From: Candidatus Zhuqueibacterota bacterium
GTDB taxonomy: Bacteria > Zhuqueibacterota > Zhuqueibacteria > Zhuqueibacterales > Geothermadaptataceae
Length of the DNA: 32,858 bases
NCBI GenBank assembly: GCA_030950365.1
Contig: JAUZRQ010000017.1
Location: 1-32,858, forward strand
Direction of reading: 5' to 3'
This document shows, piece after piece, positions 4,092 to 20,603 of this stretch. Positions within the stretch are counted from its first letter, which is position 1, and every line of letters begins with the position of its first letter. The notes beneath the pieces are model-generated. The model did not search any database, was not told the origin of the DNA, and saw only the letters and a list, made by a program, of their open reading frames with translations. The translations under genes and the position numbers were made by a program.

Positions 4092-6410
4092 TCAGGACGA
4101 TTGTTGCAATTCCTGCTGCATCAACATGATCTGAATCTTGCGGATTTGCAGATCCACCTCGTTCCATCTCTGATAGCGTTTTTGCACATCGCTCTCGATG
4201 GCTTTCATCACCAGCTCGTTCCATAGATCCGCGTTTTGCTGTTTATGATTTTTCAGATCATCGATCTTCGCCTTGTAAATGTCCCGCGGCGTTTTGATGC
4301 TCACCGTGGTGTCGTACGGATGCTTGCCGGTGAGCAGCTCGTAGGCCAGGATGCCAAACGAGTAAATGTCGCTGCGGGCGTCGCCCTCCTCGCCGGATAG
4401 AATCTCCGGAGCGGCATAGCGCCACTGCGCCGGAAACAGCACCTCGGTGTTGGCAAGGTCGGCCGAAAGCCCGGGACAGCGGAAATCCGCCAGCTTGATT
4501 TCGTTTGCCTCGGTCATCCAGATGTTGCTGGGCTTCAAATTCAAATGGGCGATGCCCTCCCGGCTGGCGGCCATGAGGGCGCGCACCATGCTCTGCAAAA
4601 TGGCCGCAATCTGCTGATCGCGGTCGTCTTCTGGCAGCTTGAATTCGGTAATCGGCCTGCCGTCGATGTGCTCACGGATCAGGTAAAGCATGTCCTGATG
4701 CTCGCCGATATCGAAAATCGTGGCGATGTGTGGGTTGCTGATGCGCGCAATGGCCCGCAAATGATCGAAAAAGCGGGCCTTTTGCTCCTCATCTTTGAGG
4801 ATCGGCAGCGAATGGTCCGGCGGAATGATCTTGACCACCACCGGCCGGTCGAGCTGCGAGTTGATGCCCTGATAGGTGGCATACTGGCCGTGGTTTCGCA
4901 AGCACTCCTGCACCACGAATTGATTGATCCGCAGTTCTGTGGCCTGGCCATTGAGCTGTTCCAGCGGATTTTCCCAGACGATGCGGTAGTATGTGGCCTC
5001 TTTGGCCGGGAAATAGCGGTACGGCCCGTTTTTCAGATACTGGCCCCAAAAAGTCGGCTGTTGCTGCAGAAAGTCGCTCCCGGCCTGGATAAAAAAGGCG
5101 CTGGCGTCGGCCGAAATGGCCTTTTCGCGGACCTGGGTCTGCCAGTGATGCAGCAGCTCCGCCACGGTCCGGGTAAACTGCTTCTCATCGGCTGGCGGAG
5201 AGGCGAGCACCATCAAAAGCGTGTGCGCAAAGATGCGCTGTGGCACCGGCAGGCCGGCATTGTGCTCGGATAGCTTTTGCAACGCATCCAGGAGCAGTTC
5301 GTAAGCGGGCAGAGGGTCGCTCACAAAGCCGACGAATCCGTCCTTTGCCGCCAGCACGACGCCCTTTTTGAGCTGCCGTAGGCGGTCCGCAAAAAGTTGG
5401 TGCGCCTGCTCGAACGCCTCTTTCGCCGCGGAGGGCGGAAAATGCACCAGAAAAAAGCCTTTGAACTGGCCGGGTTTGAATTCGCCGTTGGTGGCGCGGT
5501 CGCAGATCATCGGCATGGTTTTGAACAGCGCCTGCAGCAATCCCTCAGGCGCATCCTCTTCGACCTCCTCGTCCTTTTCTTGCAGCGCATCGAAAATTTC
5601 ATCCAGCGACAGATCGTTGAGGATGAGCTCGTACTCTTCAAATGTCCGGTTCTTCTCCGGTTTGGCCTCAGGCTTTTCAGCGGGCAGGGCCGCCCGCAAC
5701 AGCGCCAGCCACTGCAAGTCCTGCAGCGAGCGCTCCGGATCGAGGGGTTCGGCCGCCTGTTGCAGCAACTGTACATCACCGGCGTCCTCCACCGCCGCCT
5801 CGCTGTGCAAAGCACGGTAGGCGCGGGTCACGGCTGCCAGAAATTGCGTTTTCTCAAGATGGCCGTTTTCTTGCTCCGCCTGTTGCAGAAGTTGCTGTGC
5901 CTCGTCGAATTTCGCATCCAGCCAGAGCTTTTGCAGATAATGCTGCAGTTTCTGTTCGTCCGTTTCCAGAAGAATCAGCGCGTTTTCATGCTGACTGGCG
6001 CGGTCGGCATCGCCTTGCTCTTCATAATAGCGATGCAGGAATTCCCGGATGGCCTTTTCGTTGGGCGGCTGATGTTCCAGGGCGGCCTCACAGATTTCGA
6101 TGCTGAAATCGGAAACGATATTTTTCTGCACGAACAGCGCGGCCAGTCCCAGTTTCAGCGCCGTGCCGTCCGGAAACAGCTCGAGCGCCTTGTGGTAAAT
6201 CGGCATTGCCCGTTCGGACACGTCCTTCATCCCGATCAGCGCGACCGCCATGTCGCGGATGATCTCGTGGTCATCGGGATCGAGCGAATACAACTGCTGC
6301 AGTTTCTCGTAGGCCTCGGCGAATTGGTGCCTTTCGAGGTAGGCCCTGGAGAGCTGCCGCAGGATCATGCGGATTCTCTCGTTTTGCTGTGCTCCCGTCA
6401 TGGTGGCCAT
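4092..6410 (-). CDS. TPR protein with cyclase-like domain and C-terminal pseudokinase domain
   Basis: This 772-aa protein has no signal peptide or membrane helix, so it is probably cytoplasmic. Residues about 10-180 are TPR-like helical repeats and about 240-290 an acidic linker. Residues about 315-480 follow the order of a class III nucleotide cyclase domain (GFFLVHF, AAKDGFVGF, RIFAHTLLM), but the first metal-binding Asp position reads His (323); this match is tentative. Residues about 505-760 are a Hanks-type kinase fold: Lys527 in VVVKII, APE at 667-669 and Asp681 in SDIYSFG are kept. However, the HRD motif reads HLN (622-624) and DFG reads DFR (642-644), and the glycine loop is eroded. 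With the catalytic Asp replaced by Asn it is probably a pseudokinase acting as scaffold or regulator. It is the last gene of the operon, 32 bp after the TPR gene; the Shine-Dalgarno site is weak. Confidence 0.82.
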   Translation of the reverse strand: MATMTGAQQNERIRMILRQLSRAYLERHQFAEAYEKLQQLYSLDPDDHEIIRDMAVALIGMKDVSERAMPIYHKALELFPDGTALKLGLAALFVQKNIVSDFSIEICEAALEHQPPNEKAIREFLHRYYEEQGDADRASQHENALILLETDEQKLQHYLQKLWLDAKFDEAQQLLQQAEQENGHLEKTQFLAAVTRAYRALHSEAAVEDAGDVQLLQQAAEPLDPERSLQDLQWLALLRAALPAEKPEAKPEKNRTFEEYELILNDLSLDEIFDALQEKDEEVEEDAPEGLLQALFKTMPMICDRATNGEFKPGQFKGFFLVHFPPSAAKEAFEQAHQLFADRLRQLKKGVVLAAKDGFVGFVSDPLPAYELLLDALQKLSEHNAGLPVPQRIFAHTLLMVLASPPADEKQFTRTVAELLHHWQTQVREKAISADASAFFIQAGSDFLQQQPTFWGQYLKNGPYRYFPAKEATYYRIVWENPLEQLNGQATELRINQFVVQECLRNHGQYATYQGINSQLDRPVVVKIIPPDHSLPILKDEEQKARFFDHLRAIARISNPHIATIFDIGEHQDMLYLIREHIDGRPITEFKLPEDDRDQQIAAILQSMVRALMAASREGIAHLNLKPSNIWMTEANEIKLADFRCPGLSADLANTEVLFPAQWRYAAPEILSGEEGDARSDIYSFGILAYELLTGKHPYDTTVSIKTPRDIYKAKIDDLKNHKQQNADLWNELVMKAIESDVQKRYQRWNEVDLQIRKIQIMLMQQELQQSS

Positions 6411-6442
6411 ATAACGTTCCCGTCCGTTGGTTAGTCAGATGG

Positions 6443-8323
6443 TTAATTCGCTTTCTGGTTTTCATCGCCGGCTTGCAAGCGCTGGGTTTCCGCTTTCAAA
6501 GCCGCTTCGAGCACCCGAATGGCGTCGTCATCGGTTTTGCCTTCCTGTAGATAGTTCTGCGCCAGGAGCGCCTGGATTTCGTCCTGTTTCGGTGTGGCAA
6601 GATTCAGGCGCATGATCATTTTGAACACCTTTAAGGCCTGCTCATCCTTGCGTCCCATGAGCAAATACAGATCTGCGAGAGTGCGGTAGAGCTTGATTTT
6701 ACCCGGGTTTTTTTCGAGAATGCGTTCGTAAATCTGCGATGCGGCGAGGTAGTTTCCGCGCATCAAGTAGTACCGTGCGCGCACGCCCGGAATGAACAGA
6801 AACGCGCCCGCCACGGGGAAGATGATGGCCGACAGGGCGACGCCGATCCAGAGCAGGGAAGAGGAACCCGGCCGCGCGCCGGCCGATGCCGCCGATGCCA
6901 GACCAGCGGCGGTGAGCTGCGCCCGAATGGTTGCTACTAGATCGAGTACATCGCGGTATTCTGGATCGCGCAGGCGGATTTTTTCCAGCGCTACCAATGC
7001 GTCGTTCCAGGATTTTTGGTCCATCCACGCCAGCGCCTCTTGATATAACGAATCCAGTTCGTCGGCCATCAATGCCTGGGAAGGTGCCTTGACCGTTGCA
7101 TCTGCCAAAGCTTTTTCACTTTCGATTTGCTGTAAGAGGTTTTGTACATCGAGGTAATTCGGGTTCAGGCTGGCGACTTTCTTCAACGCCGCTTCTGCCT
7201 GATCCCAATCGCGGTTTTGCATGGCTGCAATGCCATTGGCATAATATTGCTTGATTAAGTTTTCAATATTTTCATTTTCAAGCCCCTTCTGGGCCTGCGT
7301 CAGTTTTTTGCGCGCGTCTTTAAACGAAGGATCAATTTTAATGATTTTTTCGAACGAATAAATGGCCGCTGCCCAGTTGCGGAATTTCAGCGCATTCAGG
7401 CCAGCCTTGTATTCGCGCTCCAGCTCGTCCTGCTGCCGCTTTTTCTGGTAAGCCTCCTGCACCCGTTGCAATCGCGCCTTGATCTCATTGCCGGGGTCCT
7501 TCTGTGCCAGGTCCTCGTAAATCGCCAGGGCCAGTTCCAGACGTCCTTCTTTTTCGTATTTTTCTGCGCGTTGCAGCGAAGCCTGTAGCGTCTGCTTTTT
7601 GGTTTCCACGGCCAGGATCGAGTCCAGCTCGGTGAGCCGTTTGGCGACGTTGCGAAAGTCCCGATTCTGGTCGAAAATTTGCTGGTACAGGCTGCGGGCG
7701 CGCTGATACTGGCCGGAATTTTTGGCTGCCTCGGCCTGCTGATACAGGCGCTCCAGTTTCAGCATCTCTTCGCTGTCGCGGATCAGCCTGTTGAACTGCA
7801 TCCGAAATTCGGGCGGAATGCCGACGTCCTTGCGGAGCTCGGCAAGCGCCTCTTCGTAACGGCCCTGCTCGTACAAAATCCGGCCGAGCTGAAACAGAAT
7901 CTGGGCGCGCGTTACCGAATCCTTGGCCAGGGCCAGGGCTCCCCGCAGCGATTCTTCGGCATCCGTCAGCTTACCCATCTTCTGGCTCACGAAAGCGAGT
8001 TCGAACAGGAGCTTCATTTTTAGCTGATCGGTGTTGCGCTCAGACTCGGTCGTGTATGCGCGCATGAAATAGGTATAGGCATTGTCGTAATCGCGGATGC
8101 GCTTGAACGTCAGTCCGAGATTGTAGAGCGCTTCGATGAACTTCGGTTCCAGTTCAATCGCTTTTTTGTAATTAGCGATTTTCTGGAAGGGGTCCTTCTC
8201 CTTTAGCGCCATGTTGTAATAGCGCGCAGCCTGCTTGTTTTTGATCTGCTCGCCCGCTGAGGGTGCCGAGAGCAGAGTGAAGCAGATGCTTAACCCCAGA
8301 AGGATGCGAACAATTCTGGCCAT
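6443..8323 (-). CDS. Membrane TPR protein with repeats on both sides of the membrane
   Basis: This 626-aa protein starts with a signal peptide or signal anchor (about residues 1-24). A long array of TPR motifs follows (about 30-465), with typical A/Y/L/G/P spacing such as YNLGLTF and AIELEP. There is then a membrane helix (about 489-511) and two to three further TPRs (about 518-610). With the N-terminus exported, the large array would be periplasmic and the short C-terminal set cytoplasmic, giving a bridge across the membrane. TPRs bind proteins and no enzyme motif is present. AAGGAGAT lies 7 nt before the ATG. The gene follows the PP2C gene after 185 bp, which include a CCGCAT/ATGCGG stem at 8460-8475, and precedes the pseudokinase gene by 32 bp. 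Confidence 0.82.
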   Translation of the reverse strand: MARIVRILLGLSICFTLLSAPSAGEQIKNKQAARYYNMALKEKDPFQKIANYKKAIELEPKFIEALYNLGLTFKRIRDYDNAYTYFMRAYTTESERNTDQLKMKLLFELAFVSQKMGKLTDAEESLRGALALAKDSVTRAQILFQLGRILYEQGRYEEALAELRKDVGIPPEFRMQFNRLIRDSEEMLKLERLYQQAEAAKNSGQYQRARSLYQQIFDQNRDFRNVAKRLTELDSILAVETKKQTLQASLQRAEKYEKEGRLELALAIYEDLAQKDPGNEIKARLQRVQEAYQKKRQQDELEREYKAGLNALKFRNWAAAIYSFEKIIKIDPSFKDARKKLTQAQKGLENENIENLIKQYYANGIAAMQNRDWDQAEAALKKVASLNPNYLDVQNLLQQIESEKALADATVKAPSQALMADELDSLYQEALAWMDQKSWNDALVALEKIRLRDPEYRDVLDLVATIRAQLTAAGLASAASAGARPGSSSLLWIGVALSAIIFPVAGAFLFIPGVRARYYLMRGNYLAASQIYERILEKNPGKIKLYRTLADLYLLMGRKDEQALKVFKMIMRLNLATPKQDEIQALLAQNYLQEGKTDDDAIRVLEAALKAETQRLQAGDENQKAN

Positions 8324-8508
8324 GACGGTGATCTCCTTACAATTTGGCCCGTGAGTTTAACCTGAGTACTGTAGCCCGGTAGCCGGCAGGGAGTAAAAAC
8401 GGATACCGATACCGGTATAAAACGCCACTGATTTCGCAAATGGACACAGAACCACGACCCCGCATTTGAATGCGGATCATTCTTTCCCTTTGTGCGGGAT
8501 GCCAGACT

Positions 8509-10146
8509 TTAAAATTCAATGGCAATGGTCTTGCCGCCGATGATGCGCACATCGCGTTTCAGCCGGAGCAGCTTGCCATCCTGATCACGGATGGCAATGG
8601 AATAGCGGCCCTGGCGGAGATAAAAGCCTTTATCCAGATAGTTGTCCAAAAGACCGAGCGGCCATTCGTTGATGTAAATTTGGGCCTGCCGGAATGGGTC
8701 CTCGTCGAAATTTCCCACCAGATAGACCCTGCCCCGGCGGCGCGGAACAGCGCGTGGTTCGTCACCGGTACGCACCACGATGTCGCTGGACTCGGCCGGT
8801 TTTTCTTCCAGCATTGGATCCGTTTGTGGCCAGCGGTTGCGGGCCATGAGCTGGATGTCGGCGCGCTGATAGACCACCTTGCGTGTGGAGTCGGCCAGCG
8901 CCCAGGTATAATTGCCGGCCACCAACGGCCGGTTGTGGACATTCTTGACGATATCCAGCACCCGGATGCCGTTCAAATAGCGCAGCGCTTCGATGTCCGT
9001 CGAATCCACGGCCTGGATCAGCACCAGCCAGCCGGCCTCGGGCCGGCCCGCCGGGTCCATGGCCGGATCGTCGGAAACGGTCTTGAACCAGTCGTCCGAT
9101 AGCAGCGCCACGGTATCCTGCGCCGCGCTGCTGGACGCCTGCGTGGCATTCTGGCGCAGAAAAAACGAACCCGCCAGCAGCGCCAGGGCCAGCAGGGAGG
9201 CTGCAATCAGCATGGGCTTTTGGATACGGCGCGCTGGTTTCTGCACTCCGAAATGCGCTTTCAGTATCCGGTCTAAATGCTGAGAGACTTTATCCGGCTC
9301 ATCGGGAATTGTGCGCTCAAGCGGGTGGATGTTGCTGCCCGGTTCGGGGCACGTTTCGATGTGGATAAGGCCGGCGGTGATGTTGTCGGAACCATCCAGC
9401 AGGCGTGCATTGAGCACGATTTTTTCCACTGCCTTTTGCAGCGAACCGTGATCGGCCGAGAGCACGCTGCGGATCAGCGCATCGGCGAGGGCGTTGTGCA
9501 GACCATCGGTGCACAGTAGATAAAGATCGTCCGGACGCACCGGCTCGATGCGCAGGTCGATTTTAATCGTCGGCGCGATGCCCAGCGCCCGCGTGAGCAC
9601 GTTTTTCTGCCGGAAGGCCTCGGCCTCGTCTTCGCTGATCTCCTGGTCTTCGATGAGCTCGTTGAGCCAGGTGTGGTCGCGGGTCAGGCGCTCCAGTTGC
9701 TGGTGACGTAACCGGTAGAAGCGGCTGTCGCCGGCATGTATCAGATACAACCAGCCATGCCGGATGATCCCGGCGACCAGAGTGGTGCCCATGCCTTTGA
9801 GTTCTGGATGTGCGCGCGCATGATTGAATAGCCGTCGGTTGGCCAGGCGAACGCCGGCGATCAACTGCAGGGCAGCCGGCGGCAGGTCGTCGGCCACATC
9901 CTGGGTCATTTTTTTGATATCGAGAAATTTCTCCTGCAGCACCGCCTCTTTCAGAGTCTCACCGGCCATGCGGCTGGCCAGTTGTCCAGCCTTGTGGCCG
10001 CCCATGCCATCGCAAATGACAAAGAACTGGTGTTTTTCGGAATAATAGAAAAAATCTTCATTGTGTTGGCGCACCTTGCCTGTGTCCGTTGCGGCGGCCA
10101 TCTGCAATTGGATCGTAGGCGCCACCTGATCGTTCATTGTATCCAT
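8509..10146 (-). CDS. Transmembrane PP2C-type protein phosphatase with PEGA-like C-terminal domain
   Basis: This 545-aa protein has a cytoplasmic PP2C/SpoIIE-like catalytic domain (about residues 12-263) with all metal ligands visible: NED at 29-31, DGMGG at 46-50, GDSR at 139-142, TDGL at 213-216 and SDN at 253-255. It should dephosphorylate Ser/Thr residues using Mn or Mg ions. A single membrane helix (about 311-330) and a linker follow. The C-terminal domain (about 470-545) has PEGA-like features (YINEWPLG, GFYLRQGRYSIAIRD). The kinase two genes upstream is built the same way, so the two are probably opposing enzymes sharing a periplasmic signal. The start could be 10146 or the ATG 9 nt downstream; AGGAAACCAGG upstream fits either. 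The 284 bp before it hold no gene but a GC-rich stem (10341-10367). Confidence 0.9.
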   Translation of the reverse strand: MDTMNDQVAPTIQLQMAAATDTGKVRQHNEDFFYYSEKHQFFVICDGMGGHKAGQLASRMAGETLKEAVLQEKFLDIKKMTQDVADDLPPAALQLIAGVRLANRRLFNHARAHPELKGMGTTLVAGIIRHGWLYLIHAGDSRFYRLRHQQLERLTRDHTWLNELIEDQEISEDEAEAFRQKNVLTRALGIAPTIKIDLRIEPVRPDDLYLLCTDGLHNALADALIRSVLSADHGSLQKAVEKIVLNARLLDGSDNITAGLIHIETCPEPGSNIHPLERTIPDEPDKVSQHLDRILKAHFGVQKPARRIQKPMLIAASLLALALLAGSFFLRQNATQASSSAAQDTVALLSDDWFKTVSDDPAMDPAGRPEAGWLVLIQAVDSTDIEALRYLNGIRVLDIVKNVHNRPLVAGNYTWALADSTRKVVYQRADIQLMARNRWPQTDPMLEEKPAESSDIVVRTGDEPRAVPRRRGRVYLVGNFDEDPFRQAQIYINEWPLGLLDNYLDKGFYLRQGRYSIAIRDQDGKLLRLKRDVRIIGGKTIAIEF

Positions 10147-10430
10147 TTGCCTGGTTTCCTGCCTCGGAATTCATTCGATCACACCAAAGGTAGCCATTCA
10201 ACCATACGCCGTTAGCGACAGTATTTGCGCCTGCAACGCGCTCATGGCCGGGCTTCGAACCGATGTGCCTGCGGCGCTTAATCTCGCCATGAATATGGCT
10301 AAATCGCTACTATTGAAGAGCTGTAAAGATCACCTCACAGAAAGCGCCGGCCGCGGTGGCCGCCTTTCGCGCCATCCCGCCACATCCGATCATGCATGCC
10401 CACGACGTAACGGCCATCACCAGCGGCAGC

Positions 10431-12860
10431 TCATATCTGCCATTTGCGATACTGATGCACATGGAAGAACACCGCAACTGCCGCGCTGGCAATCAAAATC
10501 AGGCCGAAGATCAGCCGCGCCATGGCCGAGTTGGGCCCGGGAAGGCGGAATCCGGCCAGTTGCGTGTGCTGCGCGTTGCTAAACACCTGTCCCCAGGCCA
10601 CCGTTGAAGCGGGCACCCGGCTGTTGGTTTGATACTGAAACACGCGGTTCCTGCGAGCCAGCAGAAGAATATCCAGCTGAGTATCGTCGCCAAAATCCGC
10701 CAGCAGCGGGCCCGAAGTGATGTCGGACAGGGGTTGGCCGGTATCCCACAGCGGTCGGCCGCTCCGGCCGTCAAGCAGTTTCAAGCGGTGGTTGCGATCC
10801 AGGACAATGGCATCCGCCGCGCGGTCCTTGTTGACATCCACGGCAAGCACAAATTCGATGGCGCTCCCTGGCGTTTTGGGCGCATGAGTCCATAGTGTTT
10901 GCGTCTGGTTGGACCGGCGCTGGCCGGAAATTGCCAAAATTCGGCCATCTACACTGGACGCAATCACATCGGGGGTGCCATCGTTGTTGATATCGCCAAA
11001 AGCGAAGGGAAACGGAAAATCGAGATTGAGAATGACTTCATCCAGCAGCGTGAGGCTCCACAACTGCTGCCGGTTGGCGCCATCGATGGCTAGCAGGTGG
11101 CCTTGCGCCGTGCTGCATACCAGATCGGGCACATCATCGCCGTTCAGGTCTGCCGCGCCCACCGGAAAACGGATGCGGCTGTCGGTCAACATGGAGCCGA
11201 ACGCCTTGCCCAGCTCCTCGTTGATGTCGATGGTGCCGGCGGCTTTCAGCGTGCGGCCATCCAGAATCAGAATCAGGCCGCGGTCGGTTACCACGATGAG
11301 CTCCGCCGCCCGATCGCCGTTGAAATCCACCGCCGACAGCGGCGCAGTTATCATGAAGCCGGGCTCGATCTGCTGCCACTGGTACTCCAGCAGCCGGTTG
11401 AAGCCGATGCGAATGGCGCCGGACGCTTCGGCTACGGCCACGTCATTCCAGCCATCGCCATCAAAATCGGCCGACACCGGCGGACCACTGAAAGGCAGCT
11501 TGAAATAGGGACTGGCAAAAATTTCCGCACCGGTTACGCCATCCACGCCGATCAGCCGGCCATTTTTGGATACAAACACAATGTCGGTCAGGCCGTTGTC
11601 GTTCAGCTCGCTCAGCAGCAGCGCATAATCCGGATGCGTCACGAATTCGCTGAGTTTCCATGCCAGTCTCTTCTGTTCTCCATCGATGAGGCGCAGGGTC
11701 AAATCTTCGGCTACCGCTGCCATATCCACATAACCGTCGCCGGTGAAATCGGCCACCGCCGCCAGCGGCCGATACAAGGCCGCATCGCGATCGGCCACCA
11801 CCGGCTCACGGTTGTATTTTCCGGAAGCCGCGCGCCATTTGAGCAATTTCATGGAAAACGGCTCCGGCTGCTGTTTCAGCAGGCGATAATCCGAGAATCC
11901 GCCGATGGCCATCACCAGGCCGAGAACTACAGCCACGGCCGCCGCGCCGAACAGCATTTTTTGCCGGTAGCGCAGCCACCACACGCCAGCCCTTTTCGGC
12001 GACGAAAAATCCCAGTTGCCTTCGGCCACGAACCGGAAGATCGTGCTCTGCTGATCACTGACGATTTCGATTTCGTCGCCGGGATTCAGCCGAATCTCTC
12101 GGTCCTCGGGCACCTCTTCCTGATTGACATACGTGCGGGTCTTGCTGCGCCGGTCCAGTACGTGAAACGCCTGGTCATGATAAGAAATGGTGGCATGCCG
12201 CCGCGATATGCTGGGATCGATCTCGCCACGCTTGTTGTGCCGGATGACGATATCATTCAACTTGCTATCCCGTCCAATGCGCGTTTCGCCATATTTGAGC
12301 TGAAATCGTTTGCCGCGGTACGGCCCATAGATGGCCAACAGGTAATAAGGCGCCATTTCGGTTTTGCTGCGCGCTTGCTGCTGGCGCTGGTGCGCCAGAG
12401 ACATTTCCAGGGCCTCGAGTTCGCTCTCCAATGTATCCACATTGCCAAAAGATTCGGTTTGCGCAAAAGGCTGTTCCGCTGTAACTCTGCCGGAGGTCGT
12501 CGGCTCGGCGGGCGTGTCTGTAATGGAGTCGTCCACGGAATCAGCCTGCATGGTGGTAGCTTCCAGCGGATTTTCGAAGACGATGGTGTGGCCTCCGATG
12601 GTAAGCTGATCGCCGTTGTGCAGCTCTGCCTGCTCGGTGATTTTCTCGCCATTCAAAAACGTACCGAAAGCACTGCGTAAATCGCGGATGTAGTACTGAT
12701 TGCCATGGCGTTCGAGCTGCGCGTGCCGGTTGGAAACCTGTTTATCGTCTATGACCAGATCGTTATCCTCATCCGAGCCGATGGTGACGATCGCCCTGGT
12801 GTTTTTCAGCGGCAGTTCCTTGATCACCTCGGCTTTGCGTTTCAAAATCAGCTTTGGCAT
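10431..12860 (-). CDS. Double-FHA transmembrane protein with FG-GAP/VCBS beta-propeller
   Basis: This 809-aa protein has two FHA domains, which bind phosphothreonine. The first (about residues 1-97) has GSDEDND at 28-34, SNRHA at 43-47 and NG at 70-71; the second (about 173-280) has GRD at 196-198 and SRRHA at 219-223. A membrane helix (about 302-322) leads into at least seven FG-GAP repeats (about 365-735), each with a calcium-loop motif such as DFDGDGWND or DINNDGTPD, forming an integrin-alpha-like propeller. A second helix (about 782-802) and a four- to six-residue basic tail end the protein. Predicted topology is cytoplasmic FHA, periplasmic propeller. GGGAG sits 8 nt before the ATG. The gene starts 38 bp after the kinase stop, so it is the likely reader of that kinase. 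Confidence 0.9.
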   Translation of the reverse strand: MPKLILKRKAEVIKELPLKNTRAIVTIGSDEDNDLVIDDKQVSNRHAQLERHGNQYYIRDLRSAFGTFLNGEKITEQAELHNGDQLTIGGHTIVFENPLEATTMQADSVDDSITDTPAEPTTSGRVTAEQPFAQTESFGNVDTLESELEALEMSLAHQRQQQARSKTEMAPYYLLAIYGPYRGKRFQLKYGETRIGRDSKLNDIVIRHNKRGEIDPSISRRHATISYHDQAFHVLDRRSKTRTYVNQEEVPEDREIRLNPGDEIEIVSDQQSTIFRFVAEGNWDFSSPKRAGVWWLRYRQKMLFGAAAVAVVLGLVMAIGGFSDYRLLKQQPEPFSMKLLKWRAASGKYNREPVVADRDAALYRPLAAVADFTGDGYVDMAAVAEDLTLRLIDGEQKRLAWKLSEFVTHPDYALLLSELNDNGLTDIVFVSKNGRLIGVDGVTGAEIFASPYFKLPFSGPPVSADFDGDGWNDVAVAEASGAIRIGFNRLLEYQWQQIEPGFMITAPLSAVDFNGDRAAELIVVTDRGLILILDGRTLKAAGTIDINEELGKAFGSMLTDSRIRFPVGAADLNGDDVPDLVCSTAQGHLLAIDGANRQQLWSLTLLDEVILNLDFPFPFAFGDINNDGTPDVIASSVDGRILAISGQRRSNQTQTLWTHAPKTPGSAIEFVLAVDVNKDRAADAIVLDRNHRLKLLDGRSGRPLWDTGQPLSDITSGPLLADFGDDTQLDILLLARRNRVFQYQTNSRVPASTVAWGQVFSNAQHTQLAGFRLPGPNSAMARLIFGLILIASAAVAVFFHVHQYRKWQI

Positions 12861-12898
12861 GGTTGCATCTCCCTTGCAGTCAACGAATAGTCCCTTAT

Positions 12899-15820
12899 TT
12901 ATTCCTGCGTTTCCATCTGAAAGGTATAGCGATTCAGCGCATCGCTGCGGAAATTCAAAATTTTCGATTTCGGTCGGTAGCCCGGTTTTTCCACACGGAT
13001 TTGGTAGCGACCGGCCTTGATTTCGCTGATGACGCTGCCGTTTTCATCGCTGACACCGAGCTGGCTTTCTTCACCCAGTGTGCGCAAATTGCGGTAATAC
13101 ACGCTGGCGTTCGGAAGCGGCTCGCGCGTGCGGCGGTCCAGAATGATGAGCGCAATGCGGGCCGGTAGCCGCTGCATTTTGGCCATCACCATGCGCTGCC
13201 CCGGTGCGATTTGCAGATAAAAATCCTGAAAGCCCGGTTTTTTCAGCACCGCCGTGTAACGGTAGGGCAGAAGACGGATTTCCGCCGGCGTGGTTTCATC
13301 CAGGTTGATGCGCTGGCGCCGGGTGCGCAGCTCCACGATGCGCGCGCCGATGTCGCTGTCCTCGGTGGCGCCCTCTTCTTTGGCGAAGATGCGCACGCGC
13401 CGCAGCAGCAGGTGCGTCAGGCTGGAGGGCGTGTTTTCATTGACCTCGATGCTGAATTGCCGCGGCAAATAGCCATTCTTTCGCAGGGTGATCAGATGCT
13501 GGCCCACAGTGAGCAGCAGCGTGCCGTTGATGCCGGTAATGCCCACGGGGCGATCGGCATCGTCAAGATAAATTTCCGCACGGCCGGGAATGGACTTGAT
13601 TTCCACCGGCTTGCGAAACACGCCTTCGATGGCGAAGTGATCCTTGACCCGGTCAAGGCGCTGGAATTTCCAGAAACGCCGGTCGCTGATGTTCTCCTGG
13701 CCGCGCAGGCCGTCGATCTCCAGCCCGGTGATGTCCGGCAGGCCCGCATACGTCATTTTGATGCGAATGGGCTCGTCCGTCACTTCCCAGAACACGGTAG
13801 TGGGGGTGGTTTCCGCCAGCTTGATGTCATTGATATAAATGGTGGCCCCGGACGGATACGAGGAGAGTTCCAGTTGCGTACGGAAGCGGAACACGTACGG
13901 CTGACTGGGATGGCGCTTCTTCTCACCGGCCACCTGCAGCTCGCCCTTGCGCGGCACATGGATCGATTTGATGATCGGCTCGAAGCGCGACATGGTTAAC
14001 ATCAACTTATGCACGCCAGGTGAAATCTCTTCGATGCTCAGCGGCGTGGTTTCCTGCAGCGGCTTGTCGTCCAAATATACCTGCGCACCCGGCGGGATGG
14101 ATACGATTTTGATGGCCGGCGGAAACAGAAAATCATAGATCGACGTGCCCAGGGCAGTGAAATGGGCAAAGGTATCAACCACTGTGAATAGCACGAACAT
14201 GGCTGCAAGGGAGAACAGGCCGACTTTGATGGATTTTTGATGCGAGCGCGCCGACAGCCGCACCACGTCGATGATGGTTTTCAGTTCTTCCTCTTCGTCA
14301 TCGATTTCTTCGACGATGCTGTAAAATTTCGAAGGTGTTTCCGGCAGTACATCGTTTTGCGAATCGAGTATTTTGACCTGCGGCTCCGCCTCTTCAGACG
14401 CTCTGGCTTTCTTTTTGGTTTTGGATTTGCTTTTTGGCGGAGCGGATGGCTCTTCGGCCACCGCCTCTGGCGCTACTTCGTGCGGTGGAATGTCGGTAAT
14501 GGGCGGCGCCTTTGTCCCGGCGGAAGCTGTTTCCGGCTCGGGTTCGGCATCGGTGGCCGCCATTTCGGGCCCGAACTCGACATCGGTCACGGGCTCCGCT
14601 CCGTCCGCCGGCTTGCTGTCGGCAGCCCCGTCGGCCGAGGGGCCATCCGGCTCGACCGGATGCGCCTTTTCGATTTCTTCCACGGTGAGCTCGGAGATGT
14701 CCATCAGTTCGGACGTGAGGTCGCTCTGCTTGCCATTTTCAGGTCGGGGGTCCTTTGCTTGGGGCGCTGCTTTTTCCGCTGGTTCGTCAGCCGGTACTGT
14801 TGCAACGTCATCGGCAGGCGGTTGTTGGGAAAGGCCGTCCGGCGGAATTTTATCGGTGGTGGATGCCGCGTCTTCCGCCTCCGTGGTCATCTCGTCCTGC
14901 ACCTTTTGGATGTACTCCGCCAGCTCGGTGCTGAAATCCGCAGCGGGGGCGGTCAGGATGAGAAAGTGCATCAGCTCCATGTACATCTGGTTGGCGTTGG
15001 CGTAGCGGTTGTCCGGTTTGACCGCCAGCGCTTTGCGCACGATTTGCTGCAGGTTCTCCGGCACCTGGCGTTCCTGCAGGCCGGACAGGTTCCATTTACC
15101 GTGGCGCAGGATGTCCACCACCGTTTGAGGATCGCTGGCCCGGATGAGCCGCTTGCCGGTGAGCAGTTCGTACAGCACCAGTCCCAGCGAAAAAATGTCG
15201 GCTCGGCGGTCGAGATGGGTGCTGCCATTGAGCTGTTCTGGCGCGATGTAATTCAGCTTGCCCTGGATGAGCACCTGCCCTTTTTGCCGCGATTGCTTGC
15301 GGCGAAAGTTGGCGATGCCGAAATCGATGATTTTGACCTCGCCATTGCGCGTCACCATGATGTTGGCCGGCGAGATATCCTGATGCACCAGATTGAGCGA
15401 CTGGTTGGTTTGTGGATCTTTGCGGTTGTGAGCATAGTCGAGTCCGGCACACACCTCCGCGACGATATACACACCAAGATGAAGAGGGAGGGGCTGGCCG
15501 GTGCGTTTCCCGGCCCGGATGAGGCGACTCAGATCAGGGCCATCGATGAATTCCATAATGATGTAAAACTGGCCGTCTTCGTCGCGCCGGATATCGAAGA
15601 TTTGCACGATATTGTGATGATTGAGGCGGGCCACACTGAGGGCCTCGTCGCGGAACATGTCGATATACTTCGCCTCGCCGAGCAGGCGCGGATCGACGGC
15701 CTTGATGGCGACCTTGCGGTCCGTTGCCAGGTCCAGGCCTTCGTAGATGACGCCGAAGCCTCCGCGTTTGATTTCGCGTAATATTTCGTATTTTTCGTCA
15801 ATGACTTTTGAAATCAGCAT
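12899..15820 (-). CDS. Transmembrane Ser/Thr protein kinase with PEGA-like periplasmic repeats
   Basis: This 973-aa Hanks-type (PknB-like) kinase catalyses ATP-dependent Ser/Thr phosphorylation. In numbering from the longer frame (two residues more), the glycine loop is RGGFGV at 21-26, the ATP lysine K42 in VAIK, the catalytic loop HQDISPAN at 148-155, DFG at 168-170 and APE at 195-197. Catalytic Asp150 is kept, but Gln replaces Arg, making it a non-RD kinase. An acidic, Pro/Ala-rich juxtamembrane stretch (about 310-530) is followed by a membrane helix (about 535-558). PEGA-like repeats (about 572-625, 648-695, 740-795) and a carboxypeptidase-regulatory-like domain (about 888-960) complete the periplasmic part. 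The longest frame opens with TTG at 15826, but AGGAG is 9 nt before the ATG at 15820, which I prefer. It is the first gene of the operon. Confidence 0.93.
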   Translation of the reverse strand: MLISKVIDEKYEILREIKRGGFGVIYEGLDLATDRKVAIKAVDPRLLGEAKYIDMFRDEALSVARLNHHNIVQIFDIRRDEDGQFYIIMEFIDGPDLSRLIRAGKRTGQPLPLHLGVYIVAEVCAGLDYAHNRKDPQTNQSLNLVHQDISPANIMVTRNGEVKIIDFGIANFRRKQSRQKGQVLIQGKLNYIAPEQLNGSTHLDRRADIFSLGLVLYELLTGKRLIRASDPQTVVDILRHGKWNLSGLQERQVPENLQQIVRKALAVKPDNRYANANQMYMELMHFLILTAPAADFSTELAEYIQKVQDEMTTEAEDAASTTDKIPPDGLSQQPPADDVATVPADEPAEKAAPQAKDPRPENGKQSDLTSELMDISELTVEEIEKAHPVEPDGPSADGAADSKPADGAEPVTDVEFGPEMAATDAEPEPETASAGTKAPPITDIPPHEVAPEAVAEEPSAPPKSKSKTKKKARASEEAEPQVKILDSQNDVLPETPSKFYSIVEEIDDEEEELKTIIDVVRLSARSHQKSIKVGLFSLAAMFVLFTVVDTFAHFTALGTSIYDFLFPPAIKIVSIPPGAQVYLDDKPLQETTPLSIEEISPGVHKLMLTMSRFEPIIKSIHVPRKGELQVAGEKKRHPSQPYVFRFRTQLELSSYPSGATIYINDIKLAETTPTTVFWEVTDEPIRIKMTYAGLPDITGLEIDGLRGQENISDRRFWKFQRLDRVKDHFAIEGVFRKPVEIKSIPGRAEIYLDDADRPVGITGINGTLLLTVGQHLITLRKNGYLPRQFSIEVNENTPSSLTHLLLRRVRIFAKEEGATEDSDIGARIVELRTRRQRINLDETTPAEIRLLPYRYTAVLKKPGFQDFYLQIAPGQRMVMAKMQRLPARIALIILDRRTREPLPNASVYYRNLRTLGEESQLGVSDENGSVISEIKAGRYQIRVEKPGYRPKSKILNFRSDALNRYTFQMETQE

Positions 15821-15829
15821 TGCCAATCG

Positions 15830-17373: not shown

Positions 17374-18798
17374 TTAACCTTTTTTCTTCGGCCGGTACAC
17401 GTGCGTGCTCTGGCCGAAGAACATCTCCGCGGCTTCCATCAGGGTTTCGGACAGCGTCGGATGTGGATGAATGGACAGCTTCAAGTCCGTGGCCAGCGCC
17501 GCCATCTCCACTGCCAGCACCCCTTCGGAGATCAGCTCGCCCGCGCCCGGCCCGACGATGCCCACGCCTAAAATGCGCTCGGTCTGCGGATCGATGAGCA
17601 GCTTGGTGACGCCATCGTTGCGGCCGAGGGTGGTGGCGCGACCGGAGGCGCCCCAGGGGAAGCGCACCACTTCCACCGGAATGTTCTTTTCTTTCGCCTC
17701 GCCTTCGGTGAGGCCGCAGTAGGCGATTTCTGGATCGGTGAACACCACCGCGGGAATGGCGTGCGGTTCGAACGCCACCCGGTGACCGGCGATGGCCTCC
17801 ACGGCCACCCGGCCCTCGTGCGAGGCTTTGTGCGCCAGCATGGGATTGCCGGCAATATCGCCGATGGCAAAAATGTGCGGATCGGTGGTGCGCCGCTGCG
17901 CATTCACTTTGACGAAGCCGCGTTCATCCAGCTCCACACGCGTGTTTTCCAGGCCGATGTTCTCGGTGTTCGGCCGCCTGCCTACTGACACCAGCACGCG
18001 ATCGAACACCCGCTCCATACCGGCCGCCTTTTCGCCGGCAAACTTCACCCGGATGCCGTTCGGCTCTTCGTGCAGCTCCACCACTTTGGTGCTCAGCAGC
18101 ACATCGTGGAACATGCGTTTCACCCGCGCTTCCAGAATCCGCACCAGGTCGCGATCCACCCCGGGCAGCAGGCCGGGGGTCATTTCCACCACGGTCACTT
18201 CCGAGCCCAGCGCCGAATAGACGGTGCCCAGCTCCAGCCCGATGTAGCCGCCGCCGATCACCAGAAGCGATTTTGGAATTTCTTCCAGCTCCAGCGCCCG
18301 GGTGCTGTCCATGACCCTCGGCGAATCGAGGTTCAGGGTGGGAATGGTCAGCGGGCGCGAGCCGGTGGCCAGCACAATGTAGTCGAACTGCAGCTCCTGT
18401 TCCTCGCCGGAGACGTGCTTCACATGCACCGACTGCGATCCAGTGAGCGTGGCCGTGCCCTGGATAAATTGAATCTTGCGCATTTTGGCGAGCTGGCCGA
18501 GGCCGCCCACCATTTTTTGCACCACGCTGGTTTTCCACTCGCGCAGTTTGTCGAGGTGGATGTTGGGCTCGGAAAACGCCACGCCCCAGTTTTTGGCCTC
18601 ACGCGATTCGGTGATCAAATGGGCCACATGCAGCAGTGCCTTGCTGGGAATACAGCCGCGGTACAGGCAGACGCCGCCGGGATGGGTCTCTTTGTCGATA
18701 AGCGTGACCTGCATGCCGAGGTCGGCGGCCAGAAACGCCGCCGCGTAGCCGCCCGGTCCGCCGCCGATGACGGCAATGTTTGGTTTTTGCGAATTCAT
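17374..18798 (-). CDS. lpdA: Dihydrolipoyl dehydrogenase (E3 of pyruvate dehydrogenase)
   Basis: This 474-aa FAD flavoenzyme reoxidises dihydrolipoyl groups on E2 and passes electrons to NAD+. The FAD-binding GGGPGGY motif is at 12-18 and the redox-active disulfide at Cys44 and Cys49 (CLYRGC, four residues apart as in the family). A second dinucleotide-binding site (VIGGGYIGLE) lies mid-protein, and the catalytic His-Glu pair is in HPHPTLSE (His446, Glu451). The longest frame begins with TTG at 18831, overlapping the E2 stop; the ATG at 18798 has AGGAG 11 nt upstream and sits where family members start. It is the third gene of the pdh operon, 29 bp after E2. No clear terminator follows. Confidence 0.95.
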   Translation of the reverse strand: MNSQKPNIAVIGGGPGGYAAAFLAADLGMQVTLIDKETHPGGVCLYRGCIPSKALLHVAHLITESREAKNWGVAFSEPNIHLDKLREWKTSVVQKMVGGLGQLAKMRKIQFIQGTATLTGSQSVHVKHVSGEEQELQFDYIVLATGSRPLTIPTLNLDSPRVMDSTRALELEEIPKSLLVIGGGYIGLELGTVYSALGSEVTVVEMTPGLLPGVDRDLVRILEARVKRMFHDVLLSTKVVELHEEPNGIRVKFAGEKAAGMERVFDRVLVSVGRRPNTENIGLENTRVELDERGFVKVNAQRRTTDPHIFAIGDIAGNPMLAHKASHEGRVAVEAIAGHRVAFEPHAIPAVVFTDPEIAYCGLTEGEAKEKNIPVEVVRFPWGASGRATTLGRNDGVTKLLIDPQTERILGVGIVGPGAGELISEGVLAVEMAALATDLKLSIHPHPTLSETLMEAAEMFFGQSTHVYRPKKKG

Positions 18799-18809
18799 GG
18801 GGAATTGTT

Positions 18810-18814
18810 CTCCT
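18810..18814 (-). promoter_or_regulatory. Ribosome binding site for lpdA
   Basis: AGGAG on the minus strand, 11 nt before the ATG at 18798. Spacing is long but it is the only candidate and excludes the TTG start upstream. Confidence 0.5.
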
Positions 18815-18827
18815 CGTCGAAACCGGT

Positions 18828-20588
18828 TCAACCTTCGAGCGCAATCATGAAGGGCTGTTCCAGCGCCGTGACGATCCAGCGCAGAAAACGCGCCGCATCC
18901 GCGCCGTCGATGATGCGGTGATCGTACGACACCGAAAGCGGCAGCATCAGCCGCGGCTGAAACTGGCCGTCGATGAACACCGGCTCATAGCTGCCGCGCG
19001 ATACGCCGAGAATGGCTACTTCCGGCCAGTTGATGATCGGCGTGAAGTTGGTGCCGCCGATGCCGCCCAGATTGGTGATCGTGAACGTGCCGCCCTGCAT
19101 TTCCTCGAGAGAGGTCTTGCGGTTGCGCGCACGGTCTGCGGCTTCGGCCACTTCCACGGCCAGTTGAATGATGTTTTTTTGATCCACATCGCGGATCACC
19201 GGCACCAGCAGGCCGCGCTCGGTATCCACGGCCACGCCGATGTGATAGTAATCCTTGAAAATGATCTCGTTTTTGGCAGTGTCAATGCTTGCGTTGAACT
19301 TGGGAAACACCTTCAGCGCCGCGGCCACCACTTTCAGCAAAATCGCCGTGATGGTGAGTTTGGCGCCCATGGCCTCGGCCTTGGGCGCAAACTGCTTGCG
19401 CAATTTTTCCAGCTCGGTGATGTCCGCCTTGTCAAACTGGGTAACGTGCGGAATGGTGTTCCAGGCGGTGCCCATGCGCTGCGCCGTGGCCCGGCGCACG
19501 CTGCTCATGGGCTCTTTGCGCACCGCGCCCCACCTGGTGAAATCCGGCATGGGGCCGGGCTGAAATACCGCGCCCGCCGGGGCGCCCCTGGTTTCGGCTT
19601 CGCGCCGGCGCAGATCGCGCGAATAGCGCTTCACATCCTCGATGGTGATGCGGCCGCCAGGGCCCGTGCCCGGCACCTTGCTGATGTCGATGCCGATTTC
19701 GCGTGCGAAGCGCCGCACCGCGGGGGATGCCGGCACCAGCTTTTTGCTCACCGACGGCGGGAACTCGCCTGCTGACGCCGCTGGCGAGGGAGCGGGTTCG
19801 GCCACCGGGGCCGGTGCAGGTTCCGCCACACCGGGTTGCGTTCTTTCTTGCGGCGCGGGAGCCGGCTCGGACACGGGTGCCGCCAGCGGAGGCGCCGGGG
19901 CTTCCGCCGCAGGTACCGTTGCCGGGGCCGTGACTGGCTCCGCGGACTCGGCAGTTTCCACCGTCATCAGCAACTGATGAATCTCGGCTTTGTCGCCTTC
20001 TTTGACCAGCACCTCTTTCACCCGGCCGGCAAACGGAGATGGCACTTCGATGGTGGCTTTGTCGGTCTCGATTTCCATGATGACATGATCTTTTTCCACC
20101 GTATCGCCGGGCTGAACGTGCACCTTCACCACATCGCCGGATTCGATATTTTCACCCAGCTCAGGCAGCCGCACTTCGCGGATCATGGGCTTGCCAGCGT
20201 CCGCTGCCGAGGCAGGCGCGGGAGCGGCAAGGGGGGGTTCGGCGACCGGCGTCGCCGCTGCGGGCGCGGGTTGCGGTCCCGCTACCGGTTCCGCTGTCGG
20301 TTCCGGGGCTTCCGCGACGACCGGCCCTGCTTCAGTGGTTGGCGATTCGGCGTTGACTTCGAACGTCAGGACCAGTTGGCCAACCTCGGCGACATCGCCG
20401 GGCTTGACGAGTATATCCTTCACCCGGCCCGATTCCGGCGCCGGAACCTCAATGGTGGCCTTGTCGGTTTCAATTTCCAAAACGGGCTGATCTTTTTCAA
20501 TGCTATCTCCTGGGGATACCAGAACCTGGATGATATCCCCCGAGGTAATATTTTCACCCAGTTCGGGTAATCGGAATTCCTTGATCAT
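18828..20588 (-). CDS. aceF: Pyruvate dehydrogenase E2, dihydrolipoyl acetyltransferase
   Basis: This 586-aa E2 core protein transfers acetyl groups from lipoyl arms to CoA. It has two lipoyl domains (about residues 3-78 and 136-212) with lipoylated lysines K43 and K177 in ETDKATIEVP. Both are followed by Ala/Pro/Glu-rich swinging linkers. An E3/E1-binding domain (about 283-322, ASPAVRRFAREIGID) precedes the catalytic domain (about 355-586), which ends with the active-site motif DHRIIDG (His557, Asp561). GAGG about 10 nt before the ATG serves as ribosome site. It lies 15 bp after aceE and 29 bp before lpdA. The plus-strand frames opposite it are shadows of its repetitive linkers. Confidence 0.95.
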   Translation of the reverse strand: MIKEFRLPELGENITSGDIIQVLVSPGDSIEKDQPVLEIETDKATIEVPAPESGRVKDILVKPGDVAEVGQLVLTFEVNAESPTTEAGPVVAEAPEPTAEPVAGPQPAPAAATPVAEPPLAAPAPASAADAGKPMIREVRLPELGENIESGDVVKVHVQPGDTVEKDHVIMEIETDKATIEVPSPFAGRVKEVLVKEGDKAEIHQLLMTVETAESAEPVTAPATVPAAEAPAPPLAAPVSEPAPAPQERTQPGVAEPAPAPVAEPAPSPAASAGEFPPSVSKKLVPASPAVRRFAREIGIDISKVPGTGPGGRITIEDVKRYSRDLRRREAETRGAPAGAVFQPGPMPDFTRWGAVRKEPMSSVRRATAQRMGTAWNTIPHVTQFDKADITELEKLRKQFAPKAEAMGAKLTITAILLKVVAAALKVFPKFNASIDTAKNEIIFKDYYHIGVAVDTERGLLVPVIRDVDQKNIIQLAVEVAEAADRARNRKTSLEEMQGGTFTITNLGGIGGTNFTPIINWPEVAILGVSRGSYEPVFIDGQFQPRLMLPLSVSYDHRIIDGADAARFLRWIVTALEQPFMIALEG

Positions 20589-20603
20589 GCTTGGGATCCT
20601 CTT

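Follow-up and report, generated by a model that had tools for sequence, protein, structure and literature searches.

In the threonine-phosphorylation pathway of the type VI secretion system (T6SS), a kinase (PpkA), an FHA reader (Fha) and a PP2C eraser (PppA) are encoded next to each other in one locus, and in Agrobacterium the Fha protein binds the inner-membrane protein TssL at DLPpTVVEI, phosphorylated on Thr14 (PMC3953482). The actinobacterial pknA/pknB-pstP-fhaA-fhaB locus, which served as a further comparison system (PknB-PstP-Fha; PMC6554272), combines a PknB-like kinase, a transmembrane PP2C and FHA proteins with MviN, a pseudokinase partner of an FHA domain. In type VIIb secretion the pseudokinase EssB/YukC binds the degenerate FHA tandem of EssC/YukB (PMC9600267), and the bacterial pseudokinase families described comprise ActPs1-3, DLHK, GLW, CP1 and DYD (PMC12599244). 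The five-gene cassette reported here, located in a window of 32,858 nucleotides (the complete contig JAUZRQ010000017.1 from a 5-Mb draft genome of a Candidatus Zhuqueibacterota bacterium), resembles the T6SS pathway and the PknB-PstP-Fha locus in the way it works but is a member of neither. Our literature searches on FHA in KSB1, on FHA with type IV pili and serine/threonine kinases, and on FHA with PEGA returned nothing. New in our data are the loss of the catalytic Asp in the pseudokinase, the split between the two FHA domains, a juxtamembrane motif in the kinase and paralogous cassettes (in family f7) that flank a pilus/type II-like cluster.

The cassette occupies positions 4092-15826 on the minus strand, and all five ORFs were found reading in the one direction claimed by the original prediction. 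In order of transcription they encode a sensor Ser/Thr kinase (12899..15826; 975 aa from a TTG start at 15826 or 973 aa from an ATG start at 15820), an FHA-FHA-TM-beta-propeller-TM protein (10431..12860; 809 aa), a PP2C phosphatase (8509..10146; 545 aa), a TPR protein (6443..8323; 626 aa) and a TPR-pseudokinase (4092..6410; 772 aa). Pfam matches supported every call, together with catalytic motifs for the phosphatase and the pseudokinase, hydropathy for the FHA, PP2C and TPR proteins and an AlphaFold model for the FHA protein; the kinase, complete PP2C, TPR protein and pseudokinase identities that had been predicted are borne out. By hydropathy, the kinase and the PP2C each have a single transmembrane helix (TM), the FHA protein has two, the TPR protein combines one with a signal peptide and the pseudokinase has none, in agreement with the prediction that four of the five are membrane-anchored. 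The intergenic gaps measure 38, 284, 185 and 32 bp, and the two larger ones could be promoter sites. The terminator proposed after the last gene exists as a hairpin with a T-tail at 3628-3612 (minus strand), about 460 nt beyond the last stop, but it is a weak signal, as terminator-like matches in the region (20) are not above those in shuffled sequence (16.7, sd 4.5); for this reason we do not claim a single transcript for the five genes.

Of 82 phylum genomes examined, 34 encode the FHA/propeller protein, as do 24 of 59 genera. In 36 examined FHA loci, the kinase gene immediately precedes the FHA gene on the same strand in 33 and the PP2C gene immediately follows it, again on the same strand, in 31, with the order conserved across six families. 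The genes are thus not scattered in relatives, which accords with the earlier expectation of co-occurrence and of one functional module; judged by this synteny, the set is not a chance neighbourhood and is a conserved membrane signalling unit. The nearest named relatives of the window locus are MAGs of candidate division KSB1 and Calditrichaeota (best 77% identity), and near-full-length matches with a taxon name belong to KSB1 and Caldithrix/Calditrichaeota, except one labelled 'Bacteroidetes'. A maximum-likelihood tree of the FHA protein, built on a sample of MAG data with fragmentary contigs, defined its subfamilies: group A, with families f1 and f2, one f7 copy and the window; groups B and C, which are additional paralogues in f7; and D, a set formed by f5, f9 and f11. 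B cassettes have no PP2C and f2 has no separate TPR gene, hence not all five parts are needed.

The kinase (Pfam: Pkinase, 1e-42, and four PEGA stretches) has its catalytic domain at 14999-15790 (minus strand) with VAIK, HQD and DFG intact; HxD is intact in 34/34 partner kinases, and every readable row also preserves DFG and VAIK. A low-complexity linker of about 240 residues leads to the TM (approximately 14177-14233, minus strand, by hydropathy), and from there to position 12902 Pfam places the periplasmic PEGA repeats and a carboxypeptidase-regulatory-like domain. Mean conservation is 18% in the linker and 79% in a juxtamembrane motif, KTIIDVVRLSAR (14246..14281, minus strand), which follows an acidic run and stands 15 residues ahead of the TM. 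Its consensus is [acidic run]-[KRN]-T-[IV]-[IF]-D-[VI]-x-R-[LIV]-[SA], the Thr, the Asp and the Arg being each present in 34 of 35 aligned kinase homologues, and the 9-mer TIIDVVRLS is conserved to nearly the level of the catalytic loop. The motif occurs in no other ORF of the examined loci, since the four 'other' matches were second copies of the same kinases.

Pfam finds two FHA domains (3e-39) and FG-GAP in the FHA protein, and its AlphaFold model (pLDDT 83.7) runs from a pair of FHA sandwiches through a TM helix to a propeller and a second TM helix at the C-terminus. In FHA1 (12570..12860, minus strand) the phosphothreonine-binding Arg is replaced (IGS), and this Arg is missing in 35 of 36 homologues, with L037 as the only exception; FHA1 is therefore likely not a phospho-reader. 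FHA2 (12021..12356, minus strand) shows the canonical GRD...SRRH...N pattern, its pocket residues R197, S219 and N246 are invariant in all 36 homologues and it aligns with GarA/OdhI, which makes it a likely phosphothreonine reader. The predicted double FHA protein accordingly holds as a fold, but with FHA1 lacking the binding Arg only FHA2 is a credible reader. The periplasmic FG-GAP/BamB-like propeller (residues 337-756; 10593..11852, minus strand) was recognised by Pfam, AlphaFold and fold search, and resembles BamB in fold at about 14% identity. Together with the PEGA part of the kinase it supports the periplasmic sensor parts that had been proposed.

The PP2C (Pfam: PP2C_2, 1.6e-11) has a complete catalytic domain at 9343-10113 (minus strand) with all motifs present, which are also intact in homologues where readable, and a TM at 9157-9213 (minus strand, by hydropathy) with a small periplasmic tail beyond. 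It scores 224.2 bits against the Stp1 family, just under the cut-off of 230, and carries a TM. Its linker contains Thr279 (codon 9312-9310, minus strand) within a conserved T-[IVL]-x-[DE]-E; a site of this kind, read by eye, was seen in about 27 of 32 homologues and is weaker than the kinase motif. The TPR protein consists of a signal peptide, a periplasmic TPR part, a TM (6791-6847) and a cytoplasmic TPR part. Its gene is the least conserved of the cassette: f2 has none, some members of f1 and f11 carry it in duplicate and C cassettes retain only its membrane end. A paralogue of it (about 32% identity) is found elsewhere in the window's genome (contig C48, L162:8612-10525) beside an 828-aa protein, and no kinase match was found on that contig.

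The pseudokinase (Pfam: Pkinase, 3e-27, and TPR) is a soluble protein with TPRs at 5688-6395, an alpha/beta domain at 4977-5519 and the pseudokinase domain at 4131-4934, all on the minus strand. It has HLN for HRD and DFR for DFG, and the alignment of catalytic motifs places Asn624 (codon 4541-4539, minus strand) at the position of the catalytic Asp. That Asp is absent in all 29 readable homologues (24 Asn, 4 Arg, 1 Ser), and the Gly-rich loop is lost, while 28 of 30 still have the VAIK Lys and none has lost the DFG Asp. By the alignment of homologues, the pseudokinase is real and conserved. It is probably a cytoplasmic scaffold. Among kinases of solved structure, StkP, PknB and PknA are the closest. 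The same motif pattern, with only the catalytic base lost and Lys and DFG Asp kept, is shared by some CP1 members, among them Q8F1M0 of Leptospira (PMC12599244); CP1 pseudokinases carry COG3899, whereas the cassette protein, compared by Pfam, gave no such match and has TPRs and the alpha/beta domain. The wholly pseudokinase families of the same review lost other combinations of motifs, and MviN is membrane-fused and has lost all three motifs, in contrast to the soluble, TPR-linked cassette protein. The alpha/beta domain is mostly confidently modelled and its strand-helix order recalls nucleotidyl cyclases. Neither Pfam, run on 18 members, nor a sequence search of the PDB backed the cyclase reading, and most fold-search matches were kinases, so the domain is left unassigned.

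As a working model, which rests on sequence comparison and structure prediction and to which we give a probability of roughly one half, the cassette would be a transmembrane phosphothreonine signalling system in which the kinase writes, FHA2 reads, the PP2C erases, the pseudokinase scaffolds and the resulting complex switches an envelope apparatus. On the periplasmic side, the kinase through its PEGA part and the FHA protein through its BamB-like propeller would monitor the condition of the envelope or of a machine within it. The kinase would then autophosphorylate Thr517 (numbered from TTG; codon 14278-14276, minus strand) in the acidic-KTIIDVVR motif, the predicted FHA2 dock, and binding of FHA2 to pThr517 (pT-x-x-D) would draw the propeller protein to the kinase. 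The TPR-pseudokinase, with its ATP-binding Lys and metal-binding Asp kept and its catalytic base lost, may serve as a phosphorylation-independent cytoplasmic scaffold that attaches to FHA1, to the TPR protein at its cytoplasmic end or to both, in the manner of EssB/YukC on the EssC/YukB FHA tandem. The membrane-bound PP2C would erase the mark, its linker Thr may offer a second dock, and the assembled complex might act as an on/off switch for an apparatus that spans the envelope, which for the B and C copies of f7 would be the adjacent pilus or type II-like machine. In this model the original prediction that the FHA protein reads the mark of the kinase is plausible for FHA2 and unlikely for FHA1, and the most likely marked partner is the juxtamembrane TxxD of the kinase itself, not primarily the TPR 'bridge', the least conserved part. 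Matches to T-x-x-[DE] in the pseudokinase and TPR proteins were scattered or lay within the kinase fold and were not conserved in linkers.

The juxtamembrane motif can be read in another way, namely as a conserved helix for TM-kinase coupling or dimerisation without a phosphosite, with FHA2 reading a different protein such as a machine component or the PP2C at its linker Thr. The motif is indeed hydrophobic and runs on as RLSAR towards the TM, and the PP2C Thr stands at a matching place and is kept in L057 and L067, where the Thr of the kinase is gone. The near-invariant Thr and Asp, coming after an acidic stretch, are more in keeping with a phospho-dock than with a bare helix, and they follow the same T-hydrophobic-hydrophobic-acid pattern as the proven TssL pThr14 site (PMC3953482); Rad53 FHA1 reads the pTxxD ligand class (PMC3146460). 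Moreover, the motif is damaged in three loci (Thr to Ala in L057, Thr to Pro in L067 and T-V-W-E in L069), and altered FHA2 residues, especially at Arg242, occur in exactly these three; this co-change spans two independent lineages, and because there are just two the correlation is suggestive only. We regard the helix reading as somewhat unlikely. Quite improbable is an enzymatic role of the pseudokinase, by AMPylation, glutamylation or residual phosphotransfer, in modifying cassette members: the retained Lys and DFG Asp make nucleotide and metal binding plausible, and such chemistry is known from other pseudokinases (PMC12599244), but the loss of the Gly-rich loop and the variation of the catalytic-loop residue among N, R and S suggest no single conserved new chemistry.

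The resemblance to described systems raises the question of whether the cassette is one of them. With T6SS phosphorylation it shares the adjacent kinase-FHA-PP2C trio (as in PpkA-Fha-PppA) and, by our prediction, the docking of FHA to an inner-membrane protein through a T-h-h-[D/E] site and an envelope machine as output. However, it lacks T6SS genes, its FHA protein is transmembrane with a periplasmic propeller, its PP2C is membrane-bound, and the TPR protein, propeller and pseudokinase are not known parts of that pathway. No match to VipB/TssC was found in the window, in its genome (G000) or in the f1 and f7 genomes searched, and the match of the FHA protein to TagH/VI_FHA (TIGR03354) reached 71.5 bits against a cut-off of 120.25, so that a branch of a T6SS is hardly conceivable. 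Equivalence to the actinobacterial cell-wall and growth control locus we consider improbable. The kinase and the pseudokinase are closest to PknB/StkP, the PP2C is close to Stp1, and an N-acetylmuramoyl-amidase gene (Pfam) lies downstream of the cassette in the window, yet no amidase was recognised beside the cassette in relatives. The cassette kinase carries PEGA instead of PASTA, for which Pfam gave no match and the PknB_PASTA equivalog only 238 bits against a cut-off of 450; rodA/pbpA or other cell-wall genes were recognised neither among the scanned window ORFs nor in the scanned flanks of relatives, and presence in 34 of 82 genomes argues against a core growth function. The type VIIb pair likewise joins a pseudokinase to a tandem FHA, with at least one domain degenerate, at the membrane, but it has no active kinase or phosphatase and its FHA domains lack the phosphothreonine residues that make FHA2 of the cassette canonical.

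The absence of secretion-machine genes noted in the original prediction stands for the window, where no pilus, secretion or other envelope machine was recognised beside the group A copy, and none was recognised next to the cassettes of f1 and f2; it does not extend to f7. There, B cassettes directly follow PilMN-SPOR, PilO-like and secretin genes in 5/5 loci, with pseudopilin-like genes also ahead in 3/5, and C cassettes directly precede a small pilin-like gene, PilC (T2SSF) and PilB (T2SSE) in the 4/4 loci with a readable flank, mostly with PilT-like genes after the cassette as well. The secretin, T2SSE, T2SSF and SPOR assignments are backed by Pfam and PilN weakly so, the names PilM, PilN, PilO and 'pseudopilin' being given from sequence and position. 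In one genome (G019), C and B cassettes flank the same pilus/type II-like cluster on a single contig. Since paralogous cassettes of f7 flank such type IV pilus/type II secretion-like genes, a genetic link to secretion or pili exists for cassettes of this kind.

In f7 the A cassettes have a divergent neighbour in 4/4 loci, an operon of p328, a TonB-like gene, p481 and two more genes; the TonB-like call comes from sequence reading, with no Pfam match. The operon (p328, TonB-like, TPR-like p481, proteins of about 190 and 440 aa), a putative envelope system, was seen at L161, L145, L046 and L052, mostly without Pfam matches. The p481 TPR gene occurs in 17 of 60 genomes, all of them cassette-bearing (Fisher 4e-6, uncorrected for phylogeny), and is absent from f2, although f2 keeps the cassette. 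In the window's genome this operon is unlinked to the cassette (contig C107, L161:6926-12503), and it is our best candidate for the output of the window's A copy. The neighbouring genes in relatives that were to be listed include pilus/type II-like, TonB-like and Mla/SpoIIE-GAF genes. We tentatively propose an undescribed envelope module, possible though with the odds somewhat against it, in which one transmembrane complex gating type IV pilus/type II-like and TonB-like machines would be built from an active kinase, an FHA tandem (one domain canonical, the other degenerate) joined to its own periplasmic propeller, a PP2C in the membrane and a pseudokinase dedicated to the module. If so, phosphothreonine control would reach a new class of machine, and pseudokinase-FHA and pThr-FHA interactions would meet in one adaptor. 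The cassette also connects phosphothreonine signalling with pilus/type II-like machinery, in a phylum that has been little studied. Writer, reader, eraser and dedicated pseudokinase are encoded together in one compact conserved set, and the precise predicted docking site at Thr517 opens the role of bacterial pseudokinases beside FHA adaptors to tests with purified domains.

In f7, f9 and f11 the C and D cassettes have SpoIIE-GAF and MlaE/F/D genes as divergent neighbours. Divergent MlaE-MlaF-MlaD loci are L048, L051, L053, L057, L061 and L068 (f7), L058 and L065 (f9) and L054 and L062 (f11), all except L065 having a SpoIIE-GAF phosphatase, and an RsbW-like ATPase was present near these genes where scanned (L138). 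Mla, SpoIIE-GAF and RsbW-like genes may together represent a partner-switching plus Mla neighbourhood.

Pyruvate dehydrogenase genes occupy 17374-23297 of the window (minus strand; dihydrolipoamide dehydrogenase, E2 with two lipoyl domains and E1, with phosphofructokinase upstream) and are not linked to the cassette in relatives with scanned flanks; they were rejected as a link common to the window and f7, where the divergent genes form the different, TonB-like operon. A defence system was also rejected, the PADLOC kinase matches being generic kinase-domain matches with no partner genes. At L059 (G038, contig C213) a divergent cassette has a Big_5 surface protein, with a weak match to a T9SS sorting tail, and a PorV-like protein between the kinase and FHA genes, and the locus adjoins a Tad-like cluster with FHA proteins. 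L074 and L075 contain another kinase, which lacks the TIIDVVR motif, together with a small FHA gene, after which come genes resembling those of a membrane machine. A second kinase locus of the window's genome (contig C74, L164:7522-11839) places a kinase beside a protein that matches both FHA and SpoIIE.
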